DNA of 64,000 nt, taken from Aureimonas altamirensis (lineage in GTDB: Bacteria > Pseudomonadota > Alphaproteobacteria > Rhizobiales > Rhizobiaceae). Below the pieces are notes generated by a model. The model was not told the DNA's origin. It was given only the letters and a program-made list of their open reading frames with translations, and made no database searches. Below, in pieces: positions 43,196-52,246 of this stretch. The position numbers were made by a program, and so were the translations under genes. Numbering within the stretch: the first letter of the stretch is position 1; each line of letters opens with the position of its first letter. The stretch lies in contig NZ_JAMQCO010000005.1 in NCBI RefSeq assembly GCF_023702225.1, positions 62,001 to 126,000 of the forward strand, written 5' to 3'.

Positions 43196-44218
43196 ATGCA
43201 GGAATACGATCTTCTGACCATCGGAAATGCCATCGTCGATGTCCTTACGCGGACCGACGACGCCGCGCTCGAGGCGCTCGGCGTGGAAAAGGGTGCCATG
43301 ACGCTGGTAGACGAGGCGCGGGCGATCGAACTTTACGGCGGCATGGGACCGGCCATCGAGATGTCCGGCGGCAGTGCCGGCAATACGCTGGCCGGCTTCG
43401 TGTCGCTGGGCGGTCGCGGCGCCTATTTCGGCAAGGTCGCCGCCGATACGCTCGGCGAGATCTTCACCCATGACATCCGTGCCGCCGGCGCCCATTACGA
43501 ATCTGTGCCGCTGCATGGCGGACCCTCCACGGCACGCTGCATGATCTTCGTGACGCCCGATGGCGAGCGCTCGATGTCCACCTATCTTGGCGCCTGTGTC
43601 GAGTTCGGACCGGAGGATGTCGACGAGGCTGTCGTCGCGGCCGCGAAGGTCTGCTACTTCGAAGGATATCTCTGGGATCCGCCGCGCGCCAAGGACGGCA
43701 TCCTAAAAGCCGCCGCCGCGGCGCACGCTGCTGGGCGCGACGTCTCCATGACGCTGTCCGATTCCTTCTGCGTGCACCGGCACCGGGAAGAGTTTCTCCA
43801 ACTGATGCGTTCCGGCACGGTCGACATCGTCTTCGCCAACGAGGAGGAGGCGCTGGCCCTGTACGAGACGCGAGACCTGCAGGCCGCCCTCGATGCCATC
43901 GGGCGCGACACGCGCAAGCTCGCCGTCGTGACGCGCAGCGAAAAGGGCTGCGTCGTCGTGGAAGGGGGCGCGCAGGCGGCCTATCCCGCACTGCGCGTCG
44001 ACGACGTCGCCGATACGACGGGGGCCGGCGACCTGTTCGCTTCCGGGTTCCTGCGCGGCTACACCGCCGGCCTTGACCATGGCTCCAGCGCCGCGCTCGG
44101 CGCCGCTGCCGCGGGCCATATCATCCGGCAGATGGGTCCACGGCCGCAGCTGCGGCTGGCCGACCAGCCGGAATTCGCGGCGCTTCTTGCCGAGGCTCAC
44201 CCGACCGTGGTGGCCTGA
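43196..44218 (+). CDS. Adenosine kinase, PfkB family
   Basis: Phosphorylates adenosine (or a related nucleoside/sugar) with ATP. The 340 residues show the ribokinase-type fold: EMSGGSAGNTLAGFVSLGGRGAYFGKVAADTLGEIF near 56-90 (PfkB motif 1) and DTTGAGDLFASGFLRGYTAG near 273-292 (motif 2, anion hole and catalytic aspartate). SDSFCVHRHREEFLQLM in the middle is typical of the bacterial adenosine-kinase group next to comM in rhizobia. It overlaps the end of the disrupted comM by 22 bases, tail to tail. Confidence 0.87.
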   Translation: MQEYDLLTIGNAIVDVLTRTDDAALEALGVEKGAMTLVDEARAIELYGGMGPAIEMSGGSAGNTLAGFVSLGGRGAYFGKVAADTLGEIFTHDIRAAGAHYESVPLHGGPSTARCMIFVTPDGERSMSTYLGACVEFGPEDVDEAVVAAAKVCYFEGYLWDPPRAKDGILKAAAAAHAAGRDVSMTLSDSFCVHRHREEFLQLMRSGTVDIVFANEEEALALYETRDLQAALDAIGRDTRKLAVVTRSEKGCVVVEGGAQAAYPALRVDDVADTTGAGDLFASGFLRGYTAGLDHGSSAALGAAAAGHIIRQMGPRPQLRLADQPEFAALLAEAHPTVVA

Positions 44219-45086
44219 GGTCCGACGCGATAGGCGAGAGCTTCGGCCAGATGCCGACGCTCGACTGCTTCCACCGCGTCGAGGTCGGCCATGGTGCGCG
44301 CAACCTTGAGGACGCGATGGTAGGCCCGGGCCGAAAGCCGCAGGCGGTCGGCTGCCGCCCCCATCATCGCACACCCATCCGCGTCGAGCGCGGCCGCAGC
44401 CTCGATTTCGGCGGCCGAGCAGCGGGCATTGACGTGCCCATCGGCCAGGCCCATCGCGGCATAGCGCCGATGTTGCAGGCGACGCGCGGCCGCGACCCGC
44501 TGCGCAACGTCGGCTGACGCCTCCGAGGGCCTTTGCACCATCAGGTCGGCGACCGTCACGGCGGGCACGGACATGCGCAGGTCTATCCGGTCCATGAACG
44601 GCCCGGAAACGCGCGCCTGATAGTCGCTCTGGCAACGCGGCCCCCGCGCACAGACATGGCCGGGTTCGCCCGCCATGCCGCACCGGCACGGGTTCATCGC
44701 GGCGACGAGCTGGAAACGCGCCGGATAGGTGACGCGGTGGTTGACCCGAGCGACGACGGCTTCACCGCTTTCGATCGGCTGGCGCAGCGAATCCAGCACG
44801 GCAGGCGTAAATTCGGGCAGCTCGTCGAGAAACAGGACGCCCTGGTGCGCCATGGAGACCTCGCCGGGCCGCGCTTTCGGGCCGCCACCGATCATCGCCG
44901 CCATGGAGGCCGAGTGGTGCGGGGCGCGAAACGGCCGGCTCGCGGACAGGCGTCCTTCGGCCAGCTCTCCCGCGATGGACGCGATCATCGACACTTCCAG
45001 CAACTCGCGGGGCGACAATGGCGGCAGGATGGATGGCAGGCGCTGGGCAAGCATCGACTTTCCGGAGCCGGGCGGACCGCAGAACA
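44197..45086 (-). pseudogene. comM: comM (yifB) C-terminal fragment
   Basis: C-terminal two thirds of the AAA+ Mg-chelatase-like helicase ComM, which aids branch migration in natural transformation. Seen: Walker A GPPGSGKSMLAQRLPSILPPL, RPFRAPHHSASMAAMIGGG, Walker B GVLFLDELPEF, the zinc-like block AAMNPCRCGMAGEPGHVCARGPRCQSDY and arginine-finger region DRIDLRMSVPAV, through a normal C-terminus. It joins in frame to the fragment at 51606-52246. From the element side, the frame is open to a GTG at 45147 with AGGA seven bases upstream, so a truncated ATPase could still be made. Confidence 0.92.
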
Positions 45087-45108
45087 GCATGTTGTATACG
45101 GTGGACCC
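45065..45108. other. Left attachment junction (attL-like) in comM
   Basis: Host half up to about 45086, element half from 45087. The core AGCA (45086-45089) is shared with the right junction (51606-51609). The element half ends in TGGACCC (45102-45108), the inverse of GGGTCCA at the right end of the element. The recombinase start is 32 bases further in. Confidence 0.75.
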
Positions 45109-45139
45109 ACGAGCTATCTCGGGGACCGGAGAGCATCTG

Positions 45140-46687
45140 ATGACCACAGCGTATTCCTACCTTCGTTTTTCGACGCCCGAGCAGGCCAAAGGCGACAGCA
45201 CCCGCAGGCAAATCGAACTTGCCGAGCGGTACGCTGCCGAACACGGCCTTACCCTCGACACCAACCTTCGCATGACCGACGAAGGTGTCAGCGCCTTCCG
45301 GGCCAAGAACGTGCGAGCTGGCGCTCTGGGACGCTTCCTGCGAGCCATCGATGATGGGATGGTCGAGCCGGGCTCCTTCCTGCTGGTCGAGAACCTTGAC
45401 CGCGTCAGCCGTGCCAGCCCGTGGGACGCGATGCCCATTTTCCAACAGATCATTAACGCTGGCATCACCATCGTCACGTTGCAGGATGGACGCGCTTGGA
45501 GCGAGGCGGAGTTGAGGGAGAACCCCTTCCGCATCTTCGAAAGCCTGATGGTCATGATCAGGGCGAACCAAGAGAGCGAGACGAAGTCGCGGCGTCTTAA
45601 GGCGGTCTGGGAGGCCAAGCGGCGAACGGCGGGTTCCGTCGCCCTAACTTCCCGCGCCCCGGCTTGGCTGCGGCTAGACCGTGACGTGTCTGCCTTCGTG
45701 GTCGATGAGGAGAAGGCGTCTGTCGTCATTCGCATCTACGAGCTGACGGAGGCCGGTTGGGGGCAGAACCGCATCACCGAGTTGCTGAACACCGAAGGCG
45801 TTCCCTGCTTTGGAGGCGCGAAGCACTGGCACCGCTCCTACGTGGTGAAGCTTTTGGAGAACCCAGCGGTCATCGGGACACTGGTCCCCCACGAGGTCTT
45901 CTACGAGGACGGCGTGCGGCGCCGGAAGCCCTTGGAGCCGGTCGCCGGCTACTATCCCCCCATCGTGCCGGAGGAGCTGTTCCAGCGCATCAAAGCCCAA
46001 AGGATGGGCAAGCGTGCGCCCGTGGTTCGGAAGGGGGTGGTGGCGAACTTCTTCGGCGGGTTGGCACGGTGTCCGGTGTGCGATGCCAGCATGACAAGGG
46101 TTTCGAAGGGCTCCACGAGCAAGGGCGGCAAGCCTTATCTCGTCTGCCGCGCCGCGAAGGCGGGTGCCGGTTGTCGGTACCGGGCGACGAAGCTGCCCCA
46201 GGTCGAAGAGGCGTTGTTCCAAAATGCCGGGTGGTTGATTGCGACCGCACCGAGCGGCGACGACACCTTGGACGACCAGCTTGCCCAGATCGAGGCCGGA
46301 ATGTCGGCGCTGTCGGAGCAGATCATAACGCTTGTCGGTGAACTTGCGACAAGACCCTCGGCTGCCGTTCGAACCTTTCTGGTCGAGCAAGAGGCCGCCC
46401 TGGAAGCCCTCCGCGAGGAAGAGCGCAAGCTTTTGGAATTGCACGACGCAACCAGCGGCCCATTCCTCCAGCGCCGTCAGAGCGATCTACTGGACGCCCT
46501 TGAAGCGACACCGGCCGACCCTGTCCTGGTCAACGCGCTGATGCGTCAGGTCTTCTCGAAGGTCGTCGTGGACTACCGGACGGGTCAGCTCGTCTTCGAG
46601 TGGCGCCAGGGCGGAACCACGAGCGTCACCTTCGGCTGGCCGGAGGAGGTCTTCGAAGAGGCCACGGAAGAGGCGCTGGCGAGCTGA
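45140..46687 (+). CDS. Large serine recombinase / integrase
   Basis: 515-residue site-specific recombinase. Seen: the resolvase domain with the nucleophile serine in AYSYLRFSTPEQAKGDSTRRQIELAERYA and the arginines in VENLDRVSRASPWDAMPIF and ETKSRRLKAVWEAKR; a Recombinase domain (GWGQNRITELLNTEGVPCFGGAKHWHRSYVVKLLENPAVIGTLVPH); a zinc ribbon (CPVCDASM...LVCRAAKAGAGC); and a coiled coil near 380-450. The ATG at 45140 has GGAGAG six bases upstream; longer frames are antisense to comM. Its start lies about 50 bases from the left junction. It is the probable integrase of this element. Confidence 0.95.
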   Translation: MTTAYSYLRFSTPEQAKGDSTRRQIELAERYAAEHGLTLDTNLRMTDEGVSAFRAKNVRAGALGRFLRAIDDGMVEPGSFLLVENLDRVSRASPWDAMPIFQQIINAGITIVTLQDGRAWSEAELRENPFRIFESLMVMIRANQESETKSRRLKAVWEAKRRTAGSVALTSRAPAWLRLDRDVSAFVVDEEKASVVIRIYELTEAGWGQNRITELLNTEGVPCFGGAKHWHRSYVVKLLENPAVIGTLVPHEVFYEDGVRRRKPLEPVAGYYPPIVPEELFQRIKAQRMGKRAPVVRKGVVANFFGGLARCPVCDASMTRVSKGSTSKGGKPYLVCRAAKAGAGCRYRATKLPQVEEALFQNAGWLIATAPSGDDTLDDQLAQIEAGMSALSEQIITLVGELATRPSAAVRTFLVEQEAALEALREEERKLLELHDATSGPFLQRRQSDLLDALEATPADPVLVNALMRQVFSKVVVDYRTGQLVFEWRQGGTTSVTFGWPEEVFEEATEEALAS

Positions 46688-46699
46688 TGAGCTGAGGGT

Positions 46700-48013
46700 T
46701 CACCGAACGCCCGACACGAACGGGAGCCACGCCCAGAGGGCCAGGAGCGTCGCCAGAAGCACGGGCGGCGTCAGGACGATGCCAACCCGGACGTACTGCC
46801 CCCAGGTGATGCGCTGCCCCTTGCCGGCGAGGACGTGAAGCCAGAGCAGCGTTGCCAGCGAGCCGATGGGCGTGAGCTTCGGGCCGAGGTCGTTCCCCAC
46901 GACGTTGGCGAACACCATCAGCTCCTTCGTCAACGCCGGGATGTCAGCGCGGTCGATGGCCAGGGCCCCGACGAGCGTGGCCGGCATGTTGTTCATGACG
47001 GAGGCCAGGGCTGCCACGACGAAGCCTGTCCCAATCGTGGCAACCAGCGTCCCGCGTTCCGCCAGCCAGTGGAGGACGCCGGCCGAGATGTCCGTGAGGC
47101 CCGCGTTCCCGAGGCCGTAGACGACGAGATACATTCCGATGGAGAAGAGGACGATCTGCCAAGGCGCATCCCGCATCACCTTCGATAGAGGAATGATCGC
47201 GCCCCGTCCCCCCGTCGTCCAGCGTCCTGCCACGACAAGAAGGGCTACGGCGGCAGCTCCGGTCACCAGCGCAATGGGCACCCCAAGCGGCCCTGTGACG
47301 AAGTAGGCGACCAGCAGGAGGCCGAGGAGCGGGAAGGCAGCCCGGAACACCGCAGGGTCCTTCACCGCGCTCTGCGGGGCCTCCAAGTCCTCCACTCGGT
47401 ACTCGACCTCAAGGTCCCGCCGGAAGTGCAGCCACAGGACCAGAAGCGTAGTCGCGATGGACACGAGGTCCACCGGCACCATGACGGCGGCGTAGTGCCC
47501 GAACGAGATGCCGAAGAAGTTCGCGGTCACGATGTTCACGAGGTTCGACACTACGAGCGGCAGGCTGGCCGTGTCCGCGATGAAGCCGCAGGCGACCGTG
47601 AAGGCGAGCGAAGCGGTTGTGGGAAAGCGGAGGCGCAGGAGGATGGACAGGACGATGGGCGTCAGGAGCAGCGCGGCTCCATCGTTCGCGAACAGGGCGG
47701 CGATGACGGCCCCCAGAAGGACCACGAGGGGGAACAGCCGGCGTCCACTTCCCCTGCCCCAGCGGGCCACGTGGAGCGCAGCCCACGAGAAGAAGCCGGC
47801 CTCGTCAAGAATGAGCGAGATGACGATGAGGGCGACGAAGGTGAAGGTCGCATCCCAGACGATGTGCCAGACCGTCCCGACATCGGCCCATGCAACGACC
47901 CCCGTGGCGAGCGCGAGAGCCGCCCCCATCAGCGCGGACCAGCCAATGCCGAGGCCACGAGGCTGCCAGATGACGAGGACGAGCGTGGCGAGGAAAATCG
48001 CGAAGGCGAGCAT
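46700..48013 (-). CDS. arsB: ArsB arsenite efflux permease
   Basis: Inner-membrane arsenite/antimonite exporter, 437 residues, with about 11-12 hydrophobic segments. Seen: the start [75 protein letters not shown], and [17 protein letters not shown]...[25 protein letters not shown], all conserved in ArsB (ArsB/NhaD family). No ArsA is present, so it would work as a secondary pump. It is last in the arsR-arsC-arsH-arsB series and stops 12 bases after the convergent recombinase stop. Confidence 0.95.
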
Positions 48014-48037
48014 GGAGATGTCCGGGGGCAGGAAGGG

Positions 48038-48763
48038 TCAGATGGACCGCTGGTTGACGCGCTTGGAGAGTTCTTCTGCGGTCTCGACACGCTCCGAGTA
48101 GCGGTCGGTCAGGTAGGCAGAGCGTCCACGAACGAGGAAGGTGAACTTGGCCAGCTCTTCGCAGACATCGACCACGCGACCGTAGAGGGCCGAGGGCTTC
48201 ATCCGGCCGGCCTCATCGAACTCAAGGAACGCCTTGGGCACGGAGGACTGGTTCGGAATGGTCACCATCCGCATCCACCGCCCAAGGACACGCATTTGGT
48301 TCACGGCGTTGAAAGACTGCGAGCCGCCTGACACTTCCATCACCGCCAGCGTCTTGCCCTGCGTGGGCCTCGTGGCACCGAGGGCGAGAGGCATCCAGTC
48401 GATCTGCGCCTTCATGATGCCGGTCATGGCCCCGTGACGCTCCGGGCTGACCCACACCATCCCCTCGGACCAGTCCGCAAGGTCCCGCAGCTCCTTGACC
48501 TTCGGATGGTCGGGCTCGGCTCCGTCCGGCAGCGGCAGGCCACGTGGATCGAAGGTCTTCACCTCGCAGCCGAACCAACGGAGCAGCCGGCCGGCCTCCT
48601 CGGACAGGAGCCGGGAGAACGACCGTTCGCGGATGGAGCCGTAGAGAATGAGGATGCGGGGCGGATGCGTCTGGTCGCCGGGGCGCGTCAGCATCTCGAC
48701 GTCAATCGGCTGGAGGTGCGCGAGGTCAACGCTCGGCAGATCGGCGGCCACGGGGTCGGTCAT
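48038..48763 (-). CDS. arsH: ArsH, NADPH-dependent FMN reductase of arsenic operons
   Basis: Flavodoxin-like oxidoreductase, 241 residues; ArsH enzymes oxidise trivalent organoarsenicals. Seen: [109 protein letters not shown] and [34 protein letters not shown], a complete ArsH pattern. The ATG at 48763 has GGAG eight bases upstream. Between arsC (130-base gap) and arsB (24-base gap). Confidence 0.95.
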
Positions 48764-48870
48764 GAAAGGCGCTCCGGGGGCCGTAGAAAGGAGCTGTCAC
48801 AGCCCTCGGGGACTGCTGCAGTCGCCTCAACGATCGAACCTGCGGGCGATGCTGGGACCACACGGGGCCA

Positions 48871-48888
48871 TCTCCGGACGATCGGAGA
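48871..48888 (-). terminator. Hairpin between arsC and arsH
   Basis: TCTCCG (48871-48876) and CGGAGA (48883-48888) surround six bases, five bases beyond the arsC stop. It may adjust expression of arsH-arsB relative to arsRC. The rest of the 130-base gap shows no gene. Confidence 0.35.
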
Positions 48889-48893
48889 CCGCC

Positions 48894-49307
48894 TCATGCT
48901 GCGCCTGCCGAAGTCGAGATTACCTCACCGTCTTCCTTGGTGAAGGAGCGGACCGGACGGTCCAGAAGGGAAAGGACTTCCTCGGACGGACGGCACAGCT
49001 TCACGCCCTTCGGGGTGACGACGACGGGGCGATTGATGAGAATGGGATGCGCCATCATCGCGTCGATCAGGGCATCGTCGGACAGGCTCTCGTCACCGAG
49101 CCCGAGGTCGGCGTAGGGCGTGCCCTTCTGGCGTAGGAGGTCGCGCGGCCGGCCGCCCATGGCGTTAATGAGGCCGACCAACGTCTCGCGCGAGGGCGGC
49201 TCCTTCAGGTACTCGATGACCTGCGGGTCCTCACCGGACTGGCGCATCATCTCCAGCGTGTTGCGGGACGTGCCGCAGGCGGGGTTGTGGTAGATCGTGG
49301 AGGTCAT
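48894..49307 (-). CDS. arsC: ArsC arsenate reductase, glutaredoxin-linked type
   Basis: Reduces arsenate to arsenite with glutathione and glutaredoxin. The 137 residues show the active-site cysteine in TIYHNPACGTSRNTLEMMRQSG near 13, the triad-type arginines later, and HPILINRPVVVTPKGVKLCRPSEEVLSLL. This is the E. coli R773-like class, different from the thioredoxin-linked phosphatase-like ArsC. The start overlaps the arsR stop by four bases (ATGA). gshB for glutathione is in this window but is a core gene. Confidence 0.95.
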   Translation of the reverse strand: MTSTIYHNPACGTSRNTLEMMRQSGEDPQVIEYLKEPPSRETLVGLINAMGGRPRDLLRQKGTPYADLGLGDESLSDDALIDAMMAHPILINRPVVVTPKGVKLCRPSEEVLSLLDRPVRSFTKEDGEVISTSAGAA

Positions 49308-49651
49308 CGGCAGGTCTCCGGGGGGCAGACGGTCGAGAGGCGCACGAGGTCACCGCAAATCTCCGGGTTGCCGGAGCAGCAGTCCTCGGTGAGGAAGGCG
49401 AGGAGCTGGCGCATGTCGTCGTAGCTCGCCGCGTAGAGGATGCGCCGCCCGTCTCGCCACGAGCGCAGGAGCTTGGCCCGCTCAAGGGTCGCAAGGTGGA
49501 AGCTCATCCGGGTCGGGGGGATGGTCAGGGTCTCGGCAATTTCCCCCGAGGCCATCCCGTTGGGTCCAGCGCGGACGAGCATCCGAAAGGCCCGCAGGCG
49601 GTCTGCATGGGCCAGGGCAGCGAGTGCAGCGACAGCTTCATCATCAATCAT
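49304..49651 (-). CDS. arsR: ArsR-family arsenite-responsive repressor
   Basis: 115-residue winged-helix repressor. Seen: AALAHADRLRAFRMLVRAGPNGMASGEIAETLTIPPTRMSFHLATLERAKLLRSWRDGRRILYAASYDDMRQLLAFLTEDCCSGNPEIC. The metalloid-binding cysteines lie at the C-terminus (CCSGNPEIC), as in the Agrobacterium/Acidithiobacillus type, not in the recognition helix. The start is taken at 49651; a GTG at 49711 would add 20 residues across a likely operator. First gene of arsR-arsC-arsH-arsB; arsenite should release it. Confidence 0.92.
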   Translation of the reverse strand: MIDDEAVAALAALAHADRLRAFRMLVRAGPNGMASGEIAETLTIPPTRMSFHLATLERAKLLRSWRDGRRILYAASYDDMRQLLAFLTEDCCSGNPEICGDLVRLSTVCPPETCR

Positions 49652-49667
49652 GGGCTGACTATCCAAA

Positions 49668-49682
49668 CATCCTTGTAGGATG
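49668..49682. promoter_or_regulatory. Candidate ArsR operator
   Basis: CATCC-TTGTA-GGATG is an inverted repeat 17 bases upstream of arsR, in the only untranscribed space between arsR and the divergent Cys/His-protein gene. Position suits autoregulation. The remainder of this 243-base spacer should hold both promoters; I see no gene in it. Confidence 0.45.
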
Positions 49683-49894
49683 CAAGGGTTTTGTGATGGT
49701 TGGGCCAACACCCGCTTGTTTCTGGGACAAATTTCTTCGAGCCCATCTCATAGGAGCGGAAGAGCGTCCTTCCCCCCATGGGGCGGGGTCGGTGCCGCAA
49801 GGCCGGCCGACCAGACACGCTAATGTTGCCTTGCTTTTCTTCTTCCGTTCCTGTCTGCCAGGGGACGGTCGCAAATTAGGAGCATCCAGAACGC

Positions 49895-50554
49895 ATGAGG
49901 AAGTGCCAAGTACCGGGCTGCGGGGAGATGACCACGCGCTTCGGTCGCTACTGCACCAGCCACAAGGCTCGGGCTCGACGCCATGGTGATGTCTACCAAC
50001 GCGGGGTCACCGCCACGGAGCTGAAGCCCTTCGTGATGAAGGTCCGGGCGAGGATGGCGAAGAACGCCGACAACCCGCTGTGGGACCAATGCGATGCCCG
50101 CTGGAGGGCCATCGTGGACCATGCGGTCGGCATCGGCCGGACCTTCCAGTCGGGCCAGCCGGGGAACCGCTACGAGCATCAGGCGGCCAAGATGATCATG
50201 AACATTGGCTCGCAGGTCGAGCCTCGGGCGGCCGTTGAGACGGCCTTGGCGATGTACCTGATGCGGGAGGCGGACCCGTACCGCTTCACCTCGGACGGTG
50301 CCTTCTCGGTCCAGCTCGCGAGACGGCTTCGGGGCTTGGGTGAGGTCAACGCTACGACGACCGTAGATCGGTCAGGACGGCAGCGGCGGGTCTACCGGGA
50401 GCTATCCCCGAAGGTCACCATCGTCATCGCCCAGTGGGCCGCACAGGCGCTGGGAGCGGCCGGCATCATCATCGCGAGGTTGGAGATGAAGGAGGTGGAG
50501 GCCGCCAGAGCCGAGCGGGATGCCTTCAGCGAAGCCTTGAGCCGCCTCACCTGA
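49895..50554 (+). CDS. Unknown protein with an N-terminal Cys/His cluster
   Basis: 219 residues. The first 30 hold CQVPGCGEMTTRFGRYCTSHKARARRHGD, a CxxxxC...CxxH set likely to bind zinc, often seen at the N-terminus of short phage or plasmid DNA-binding proteins. The rest is helical with no motif I know (DQCDARWRAIVDHAVGIGRTFQSGQ; RRVYRELSPKVTIVIAQWAAQALG). AGGAG lies 12 bases before the ATG. It is followed by the ParB-like gene after 95 bases, both pointing to the right end. A role in element excision, copy or regulation is possible but unsupported. Confidence 0.7.
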   Translation: MRKCQVPGCGEMTTRFGRYCTSHKARARRHGDVYQRGVTATELKPFVMKVRARMAKNADNPLWDQCDARWRAIVDHAVGIGRTFQSGQPGNRYEHQAAKMIMNIGSQVEPRAAVETALAMYLMREADPYRFTSDGAFSVQLARRLRGLGEVNATTTVDRSGRQRRVYRELSPKVTIVIAQWAAQALGAAGIIIARLEMKEVEAARAERDAFSEALSRLT

Positions 50555-50599
50555 CACCATCCAAGAACCATGCGCCGGCCGCACCACGGGGCACCATAG

Positions 50600-50614
50600 G
50601 TGCAGTGACTGCAC
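50600..50614. promoter_or_regulatory. Palindrome GTGCAG-TGA-CTGCAC before the ParB-like gene
   Basis: Perfect 6-bp arms around three bases, 35 bases upstream of the ParB-like start and 45 bases after the Cys/His-protein stop. It may be an operator or a binding site for one of these two proteins. Confidence 0.5.
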
Positions 50615-50649
50615 TTGTGCCGGCCGATGCCGAGACGAGAGGAAACCCC

Positions 50650-51504
50650 ATGATCGGAGCCACCACCTCCGCCGACATCCCATTCACCGACGACGAAGGC
50701 GAGGACGTCGAGCTGGAGCTGGCCTACGAGCCTTCCGAGACGTTGGAAGAGCTTCGGAAGATGGCGAAGAAGGCGACGGTCACCGAGCGCCCACCTCGGC
50801 TGGACCTTCAGGACATCCACGAGTACCCCGAGGTGTTCCAGCCGCGCCCTCTCAACGTCCAGCACATCGATGAGCTGAAGCGAGCGATCAAATCCCGAGG
50901 TGATGTCGAACCCATCACCGTCATGCAGATCGGCTTGAAGGCCGTCGTGATCGACGGGCACCACCGCAGGACCGCCTACGGGGACGCAGGGAAGCGTGAG
51001 GGCATCCCCGTGAAATACTTCGAGGGGTCGCTGGAGGAGGCCGTCTTGGAGGCAGGGAAGGCGAACTCCAAGGCCAAGCTCCAGATGGACAACCGCACCC
51101 GCCAAAACTACGCATGGCGGCTGGTGATGATGGACTTCTCGAAGAGGCAGATCGTGGAGGCGGCCAGCGTCTCGGACGGTCAGATCGGCATCATGCGCCG
51201 TGTCCGCAAAGAGCTTGGTCCCCTTGCCTTCGACCAGAAGCACTGGTGGCAGGCCCACAACGCCTGGAAGGGGCTGGAGAACCACACCGAGAGCGATGAG
51301 GAGCTGGAGGAGCGTCTGGAGGCGCAGGCGGCGAACTATGCCGACCGTCTCAAGAAGGAGTTTGGGTCCAAGCTCAACCGAAACACGGACCTCGCTGCGA
51401 GAGCGTTGGCTCGCCATTTCGGTCGCAGCCTCGGGCAGCTCATCGCGGACCTTCAGGGCCATTGGGATGGTCCGATGGAAGCCGGTGAGGATGACGACTT
51501 CTGA
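50650..51504 (+). CDS. ParB/sulfiredoxin-domain protein
   Basis: 284 residues. The ParB/Srx N-terminal domain spans about 55-130: PRPLNVQHIDELKRAIKSRGDVEPITVMQIGLKAVVIDGHHRRTAYGDAGKREGIPVKYFEG, with the key GHHRRTAY block. A helix-turn-helix-like part follows (SKRQIVEAASVSDGQIGIMRRVRKEL), then a charged C-terminus ending EAGEDDDF. The N-terminus is acidic. The ATG at 50650 has GAGGA six bases upstream. There is no ParA partner. Some ParB-fold proteins hydrolyse CTP or act as nucleases or regulators; the role here is unknown. Adjacent to the right junction. Confidence 0.82.
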   Translation: MIGATTSADIPFTDDEGEDVELELAYEPSETLEELRKMAKKATVTERPPRLDLQDIHEYPEVFQPRPLNVQHIDELKRAIKSRGDVEPITVMQIGLKAVVIDGHHRRTAYGDAGKREGIPVKYFEGSLEEAVLEAGKANSKAKLQMDNRTRQNYAWRLVMMDFSKRQIVEAASVSDGQIGIMRRVRKELGPLAFDQKHWWQAHNAWKGLENHTESDEELEERLEAQAANYADRLKKEFGSKLNRNTDLAARALARHFGRSLGQLIADLQGHWDGPMEAGEDDDF

Positions 51505-51512
51505 CCTACCTC

Positions 51513-51545
51513 ATGCAATCCCTACGTGGTGCAAATTGCATAGGG
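51513..51545. repeat. Nested inverted repeats at the right end of the element
   Basis: ATGCAAT (51513-51519) and ATTGCAT (51535-51541) are perfect inverted repeats; CCCTA (51520-51524) and TAGGG (51541-51545) lie partly within and beyond them. They stand just after the ParB-like stop and 40 bases before the attP-like arm. They may be a terminator, or accessory sites for recombination. Confidence 0.45.
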
Positions 51546-51584
51546 TGAAGTTCCGACGCAGCCAATTGGTGCCATCCGAACATA

Positions 51585-51628
51585 GGGTCCATTGTCAACA
51601 ACGGGAGCAGGTTGTGCCCGCCGGCTGC
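51585..51628. other. Right attachment junction (attR-like) in comM
   Basis: Element half 51585-51606 begins with GGGTCCA (51585-51591), inverse of TGGACCC at the left end. The shared core AGCA is at 51606-51609, and comM sequence continues to the right. Joined element halves match at 15 of 22 symmetric positions, as expected for an attP of a serine integrase. Confidence 0.75.
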
Positions 51629-52246
51629 CGCAACCTCGAGGGCGCGCCGGGCTTCCTCCTGGCCCCGGATATCCGCCATGTCCGGCAGCGATGCCGAAGC
51701 GGCGCGGCTGACCGGCGTAGGGCGCTCCAGGATCTGCGTGCCCCGGAAATGGTTGGCGATCTGGATGATGTTGCGGGCGGCGACGATGCGCATGTCGGCT
51801 CCGGCCCAGGCTGCCTCCGATCCGCAGGAATGGGGGCAGATGAGGCCGAGGCCACTTGCATTGGCCGCCATCGCGGCCGGCAGAACGCCATTGACGGCAA
51901 CGATGCTGCCGTCCAGCGACAGCTCTCCCAGTACTGCATAGTCCGACAACCCTGCCGGCGGAATCGCGCCGAGCGCGGCCATCAGGCCAAGCGCGATCGG
52001 CAGGTCGTAGTGGCTGCCTTCCTTCGGCAGGTTGGCCGGCGCCAGATTGATGGTGATCCGTTTGGGCGGCATCGCCAGTCCCGATGCATGAAGTGCGGAC
52101 TGGACCCGCTCGCGGCTTTCGGCAACAGCCTTGTCCGCCAGGCCGACGATCTGCATGCCGACCTTGCCGGGCGCCACCATCACCTCGACATCGACGGGGA
52201 TGGCTTCCACGCCCTGAAAGGCCACCGTGCGAACCCTGGCGATCAT
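51606..52246 (-). pseudogene. comM: comM (yifB) N-terminal fragment
   Basis: N-terminal third of ComM, about 213 codons from the ATG at 52246. Seen: MIARVRTVAFQGVEAIPVDVEVMVAPGKVGMQIVGLADKAVAESRERVQSAL, KRITINLAPANLPKEGSHYDLPIALGLMAALGAI, LGELSLDGSI, and DIRGQEEARRALEVAAAGGHNL, cut just before Walker A. The frame runs on into the element for 33 codons and stops at 51506. Together with the fragment at 44197-45086 it gives about 510 residues, the usual ComM length. Confidence 0.92.

Follow-up and report, generated by a model that had tools for sequence, protein, structure and literature searches.

ComM has been described as a helicase that aids the recombination of heterologous DNA in diderms; in Acinetobacter, its loss reduced transformation with the DNA tested roughly 100-fold (PMC11472951, PMC11612176; here and below, each source is cited for part of its text). 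Mobile elements in comM have been described for Aggregatibacter, Mannheimia, Francisella, Pseudomonas syringae, and Acinetobacter (Croucher 2016, PMC4774983), the last including AbaR resistance islands and other insertions carrying CBASS or Zorya defence loci (PMC11472951). The magnesium chelatase/ATP-dependent protease gene was the target of 12.4% of the predicted site-specific large serine recombinases (LSRs) (Durrant 2022, PMC10083194), and LSRs of phage WO use the magnesium chelatase gene of Wolbachia (PMC9203015). From these parts of the literature, both LSR insertion in the comM gene family and comM disruption by mobile elements are already known.

Here, we discuss a 64,000-nucleotide stretch (the window; G000:C37:62001-126000) of the 4.33-Mb genome of Aureimonas altamirensis, in which comM is broken in codon 214 by a 6520-bp element with arsenic-resistance genes (Table 1). 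Like the AbaR islands, it places resistance cargo in comM, but AbaR has Tn7-like transposition genes, whereas this element has an LSR (PMC11472951). It shares with the elements of Durrant 2022 an LSR, an attB within a gene, inferred attP and attB sites, and the target gene family; the codon, the compact element plan, and arsenic cargo are not stated in the parts of that main text compared (PMC10083194). The sr1WO prophages also combine an alphaproteobacterial host with a serine recombinase and the same gene family (PMC9203015), but they are prophages rather than a 6.5-kb cargo element, and the likeness holds for the gene, not the codon. The cases in PMC4774983, among them integrase CF65_00446, resemble ours in that comM is a repeated insertion site and the competence argument is made, a likeness drawn without regard to integrase class. 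The original prediction saw in the LSR a different route into comM; an LSR element without a transposase was indeed found, but the route is not new, since LSRs in this gene are already published (PMC10083194, PMC9203015). Similarly, that the interruption of comM by mobile elements bears on competence, as predicted, had been argued before (PMC4774983, PMC11472951). As far as the literature searched goes, three aspects are less documented: a family of compact elements that exchange their cargo, the use by LSRs of a second site around codon 33, and the presence of related ars operons in another kind of comM element in congeners. No report of the compact comM-element family was recognised in that literature, which lay outside subscription papers and preprints.

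Table 1. Features of the interrupted comM locus, with positions in the window
Feature	Position	Strand	Basis
comM 3' part, from codon 214, including Walker A	44197..45087	-	Pfam, joint translation
2-bp core at comM 3' junction (attR), CT on comM strand (AG on plus)	45086..45087	-	att alignment
attP arm P, 21 bp	45088..45108	.	att alignment
Large serine recombinase (LSR), 515 aa	45140..46687	+	Pfam Resolvase, Recombinase, zinc-ribbon; PHROGs
ArsB arsenite efflux pump	46700..48013	-	PF02040, E 2.4e-138
ArsH-type NADPH-dependent FMN reductase (ArsH name from context)	48038..48763	-	PF03358 (FMN_red)
ArsC arsenate reductase family	48894..49307	-	PF03960
ArsR-type HTH regulator (name from context)	49304..49711	-	PF12840 (HTH_20)
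HNH-endonuclease-like protein, no Pfam match	49895..50554	+	phrog_144, E 3.9e-6
ParB-like protein, ParB/Srx-type fold (longest frame from 50434)	50650..51504	+	PHROGs, predicted fold
attP arm P', 21 bp, inverted relative to P	51585..51605	.	15/21 positions match P
2-bp core at comM 5' junction (attL), CT on comM strand (AG on plus)	51606..51607	-	att alignment
comM 5' part, codons 1-213 and core	51606..52246	-	Pfam, joint translation

The two comM pieces lie on the minus strand in the same frame, and joining the flanks at the 2-bp core gives 1530 nt encoding 509 aa without an internal stop, with AAAGGHNLLFCGPPGSGKSM spanning the joint. This agrees with the original prediction of co-oriented, in-frame pieces encoding about 510 residues and of an arsenic element that uses an LSR to enter comM just ahead of Walker A; the predicted interval, 45087-51606, is one valid way to write the element. 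Comparison with uninterrupted comM of relatives, proposed as a check, revealed the empty site in congeners: the joined ComM and the intact protein of congener G013 shared 91.7% identity over 509/509 residues, gap-free and collinear, and the joined DNA was 87.9% identical to that of G013 and 86.7% to that of G005. The G+C content of the element was 64.5%, that of the window as a whole 65.9%, and that of the flanking comM sequence 69.0%. The insertion separates the N-terminal part of ComM from its ATPase part, and the reading frame of the 5' part continues into the element until a stop at 51506. Owing to the P arm sequence, attR (window 45086-45108) has an in-frame ATG directly before codon 214 (ATG in 8 of the 10 compared elements, GTG in 1); translation of the ATPase part of ComM might start again there.

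Among the seven genes of the element, the ArsB, FMN_red, ArsC, and HTH_20 matches were above the Pfam cut-offs. The LSR adjoins one end of the element and its frame is intact; S11, R9, and the zinc-ribbon cysteines, which we take to be functional residues, were invariant across eight aligned LSRs. Pfam scans of the seven genes yielded no transposase or other transposition gene, no phage structural, terminase, or lysis gene, and no relaxase or type IV secretion gene, and a PHROGs scan of three of them returned integrase, HNH-like, and ParB-like matches alone. The predicted fold of the ParB-like protein (mean pLDDT 70.9) had ParB 7bnk as its best Foldseek match (E 9.6e-7, TM-score by query 0.31), and, judging from this model, the protein may act in partition, in regulation, or as a recombination directionality factor. 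In phiC31, the directionality factor is gp3; an hhalign comparison of the ParB-like alignment with gp3 gave a probability of 0.1%, and a gp3-type role was rejected. ParB is not mentioned in the part of PMC5311408 compared. Single-protein searches of genome-contig and viral-contig collections found no relative, a phage collection gave one weak ParB match, and a plasmid collection gave 55 records with LSR matches, all below 60% identity and none covering 80% of the query.

Serine integrases typically have a symmetric attP and a 2-bp crossover. When the P arm was compared with the reverse complement of the P' arm in the window and nine relatives, symmetry centred on the first two bases of codon 214 gave 148 of 210 matches; ten other shifts (-5 to +5) gave 30 to 69 of 210, and 0 of 10000 trials with base-shuffled arms reached 148. 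The core was identical at both ends in all ten elements (CT in eight, AT in G248, and TT in G265). The inferred 44-bp attB has CACAACCTG-CT-GTTCTGC on the comM strand and coincides with a protein motif that is conserved in each of the ten genes compared. For recombinase tools, it is of value that the att sites of LSRs which target a single conserved codon across Proteobacteria are resolved to the base, with an attP that is symmetric and the natural core variants CT, AT, and TT.

We consider it very likely (probability about 0.93) that a 6.5-kb arsenic-resistance integrative element entered comM by LSR-mediated site-specific recombination. What can be read directly from sequence is where the element lies, that relatives have a vacant site, that the att arms are symmetric and the cores agree, and that the target is shared across the clade described below. 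In this mechanism, the window's own LSR would recombine the codon-214 attB with an attP having a central CT and inverted 21-bp arms, yielding attL and attR, and a circular form would exist or have existed. The split ComM is probably inactive, and poorer recombination of incoming DNA could help the element persist. Transformation would then be lost in the host, and retention of the element could benefit from this; a ComEC gene, the sole component of the uptake machinery searched for, was found in the host. The element would belong to a widespread compact LSR group that uses codon 214 and exchanges its cargo.

We investigated how often this codon is used. ComM was present in 288 of the 297 family genomes (E <= 1e-30), among which 25 were split at codon 214, 4 near codon 33, and 8 near codon 78; these splits were counted in 55 re-searched genomes (low ComM score, ComM missing, or congeners) plus the window's own, and other breaks may be missed. 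A search for recombinases at the same codon of other alphaproteobacterial comM genes had been proposed as a check. Of the 20 congeners, 14 had contiguous comM halves, 5 were split at codon 214, and G019 had no ComM match. LSR homologues occurred in 82 of the 297 family genomes (E <= 0.001), and among the best 30 LSR loci of these 82, a comM half breaks off at codon 214 in 21 and at codon ~33 in 2, with neither in 7; the comM association of family LSR loci exceeds chance. A profile scan gave 79 named LSR loci, of which 53 abut codon 214 and 5 lie at codon 33, and the other 21 have no comM piece. The hosts include alpha-, beta-, and gammaproteobacteria, and some are metagenome bins that carry the label of another phylum. 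Across the class, matches to the LSR alignment (E <= 1e-60) were found in 8 of 385 sampled genomes, one of them the window's own. Since 7/30 family loci and 21/79 named loci had no comM piece, some of them on short contigs, the wider LSR group has either other targets or unseen ends.

In a tree of 33 LSRs, the window fell in an 11-row clade (support 100/98), ten rows of which are labelled codon 214; the eleventh, L043 of G135, shares its contig with a comM piece whose last residue is 220. In a tree of 105 LSRs, a 54-row clade (SH-aLRT 94) comprised 45 rows at codon 214 and 5 at codon 33, the remaining 4 having no comM piece. The closest LSR found was 54% identical over 310 columns, so the mobility of the window element need not be recent. 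In G230, two comM pieces (G230:C90:3-641 and G230:C109:3-869) end at codons 213 and 214, at most 3 bases from the contig starts, which suggests an unassembled insertion.

Complete elements between comM halves numbered 30, or 29 distinct ones (L131 was left out, as its LSR and ORF lengths are the same as those of L096), and were 2.8-10.2 kb long. Fifteen compact elements encode one small-protein cluster, whose L098 member is a serine resolvase by Pfam; the ParB-like cluster occurred in nine and the HNH-like protein in six, the window's element included in both. Recognised cargo in relatives was often restriction or defence. G144 carries DzbA and DzbB (Dazbog) and an MrcB_N/NOV_C protein, G248 an MrcB_N-HNH protein, G323 an N6-methylase with a specificity subunit, and G147 UDG-, trypsin-, and hydrolase-like proteins; MmeI was found in L115 and DndB in L130, and the families listed for 74 pooled ORFs included Eco29kI, C5-methylase, and Vsr (two members each) as well as Mrr_cat. 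Many cargo ORFs matched nothing, and nine of ten proteins checked had no PADLOC family. Of the 29 distinct elements, only the window's showed its ars genes, and its four Ars proteins had no homologue among the ORFs of the other compact elements. The pooled scans covered 74 of 133 non-LSR ORFs and the first 25 families per tally, without ORFs <110 aa, members of the resolvase or ParB-like cluster, or any ORF of the elements WIN, L095, L096, L098, L145, and L146, and a relaxase in relatives is possible. Because the ORF caller retained those ORFs that lay within the limits of an element, it missed the LSR in 8 of 30 elements, and end genes may have been missed too.

A broader generalisation, which we advance tentatively and think rather unlikely, is that compact comM elements form a distinct class of minimal LSR islets of ~3-10 kb, with an LSR, often a ParB-fold protein or small resolvase, a swappable cassette that benefits the host (restriction, Dazbog, arsenic), and no transfer genes recognised in the scanned part. 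Such islets would spread across Proteobacteria riding other vehicles, and ComM loss would protect them from recombinational removal, so that a change of attB (from codon 214 to about 33) would stay within comM.

Other sites in comM are also used. Splits at codon ~33 were found in G296, G310, G114, and G135, and LSR loci at codon 33 were L045, L047, L161, L163, L167, L170, and L180. Insertion at codon 33 occupies two separate places in the LSR tree, one beside codon-214 elements of Bradyrhizobium and the other in another clade (G296, G310); a third label change on the 105-LSR tree is due to the 7.4-kb contig L174, which falls within the first codon-33 group and has no comM piece. The comM pieces in G114 (contigs C6 and C25) and G135 (C12, C13, and C24) fit breaks at both ~33 and 214, and in G135 all three contigs have LSR pieces. 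Codon ~78 is a hot spot in G087, G103, G110, G191, G250, G252, G285, and G320 (loci L110, L111, L112, and L113), with the G110 split judged from the 3' part alone; the G250 element carries Mu-transpos_C_2, rve, and IstB genes. In congener G020, comM pieces 2-83 (C25:70528-70773) and 208-505 (C47:18830-19726) are on separate contigs with no middle piece listed, and the gene is perhaps broken at both codon ~80 and 214.

The AbaR islands of Acinetobacter comM (PMC11472951, in part) and the Mu-transpos_C_2/IstB element at the codon-78 site of G250 could be taken as precedents for an AbaR/Tn6022-type resistance transposon that jumped into comM with the LSR as a passenger. However, the window element has no transposase among its genes, and its ends have the form expected of a symmetric attP around a 2-bp core, as do those of other elements; we consider such a transposon highly improbable. 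An immobile relic, meaning an old LSR integration that is now fixed, kept for its arsenic genes, and no longer excised in this lineage, is possible, if on balance doubtful. It accords with the lack of phage structural, relaxase, or secretion genes (Pfam for seven genes, PHROGs for three), of a recognised directionality factor (the ParB-like protein had no match to phiC31 gp3), and of any LSR found closer than 54%, but the LSR frame is intact with conserved motifs, both att sites are kept with identical cores, and the 14/20 congeners with contiguous comM halves indicate that the insertion is not ancestral to the genus.

Whether the loss of transformation matters to the element is a separate point, and we give even odds to comM being struck merely for a conserved, durable attB around Walker A, with that loss a by-product without advantage to the element. 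The conserved protein motif at attB in the ten compared genes and the general conservation of LSR targets (PMC10083194, in part) are in keeping with this. In 31 intact genes, a stretch at codon ~32 also weakly resembles the codon-214 attB (its best rank ran from 1 to 289 among roughly 3000, with a median of 33; a weak test), a likeness by which the second site could be accounted for from sequence alone. On the other hand, LSRs from two places in the tree use codon ~33 of comM, non-LSR elements strike a third place at codon ~78, and competence genes are enriched among LSR targets in the part of Durrant 2022 drawn on (PMC10083194). These loci form a wide-ranging natural collection in which to ask whether it is the sequence of comM or the effect of its loss on recombination that makes mobile elements choose it.

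As evidence against ars genes being a peculiarity of the window's element, we found that congeners G011 and G001 have a different, larger element in the same comM codon (31.5 kb in G011; comM halves on two contigs in G001). Its LSR, 38% identical to the window's, is beside the comM 5' part, and its ars operon adjoins the 3' part, with identities to the window's proteins of 90% (ArsH), 81% (ArsB), 75% (ArsC), and 79% (ArsR) (L205 1185-2756, L206 5930-13208; L207 and L209); the presence of a MobA/MobL relaxase in G011 was confirmed. Contig C5 of the window's genome holds a second ars set (L212 5634-8905), with an ArsB 81% identical. The operons in the G011/G001 element and on contig C5 indicate that related ars operons move about within the genus and have entered comM elements on two or more occasions, perhaps, judging from these comparisons, by exchange between elements sharing the codon-214 site. 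The contig with the second ars set also has a resolvase-like match (C5:10375-10878).
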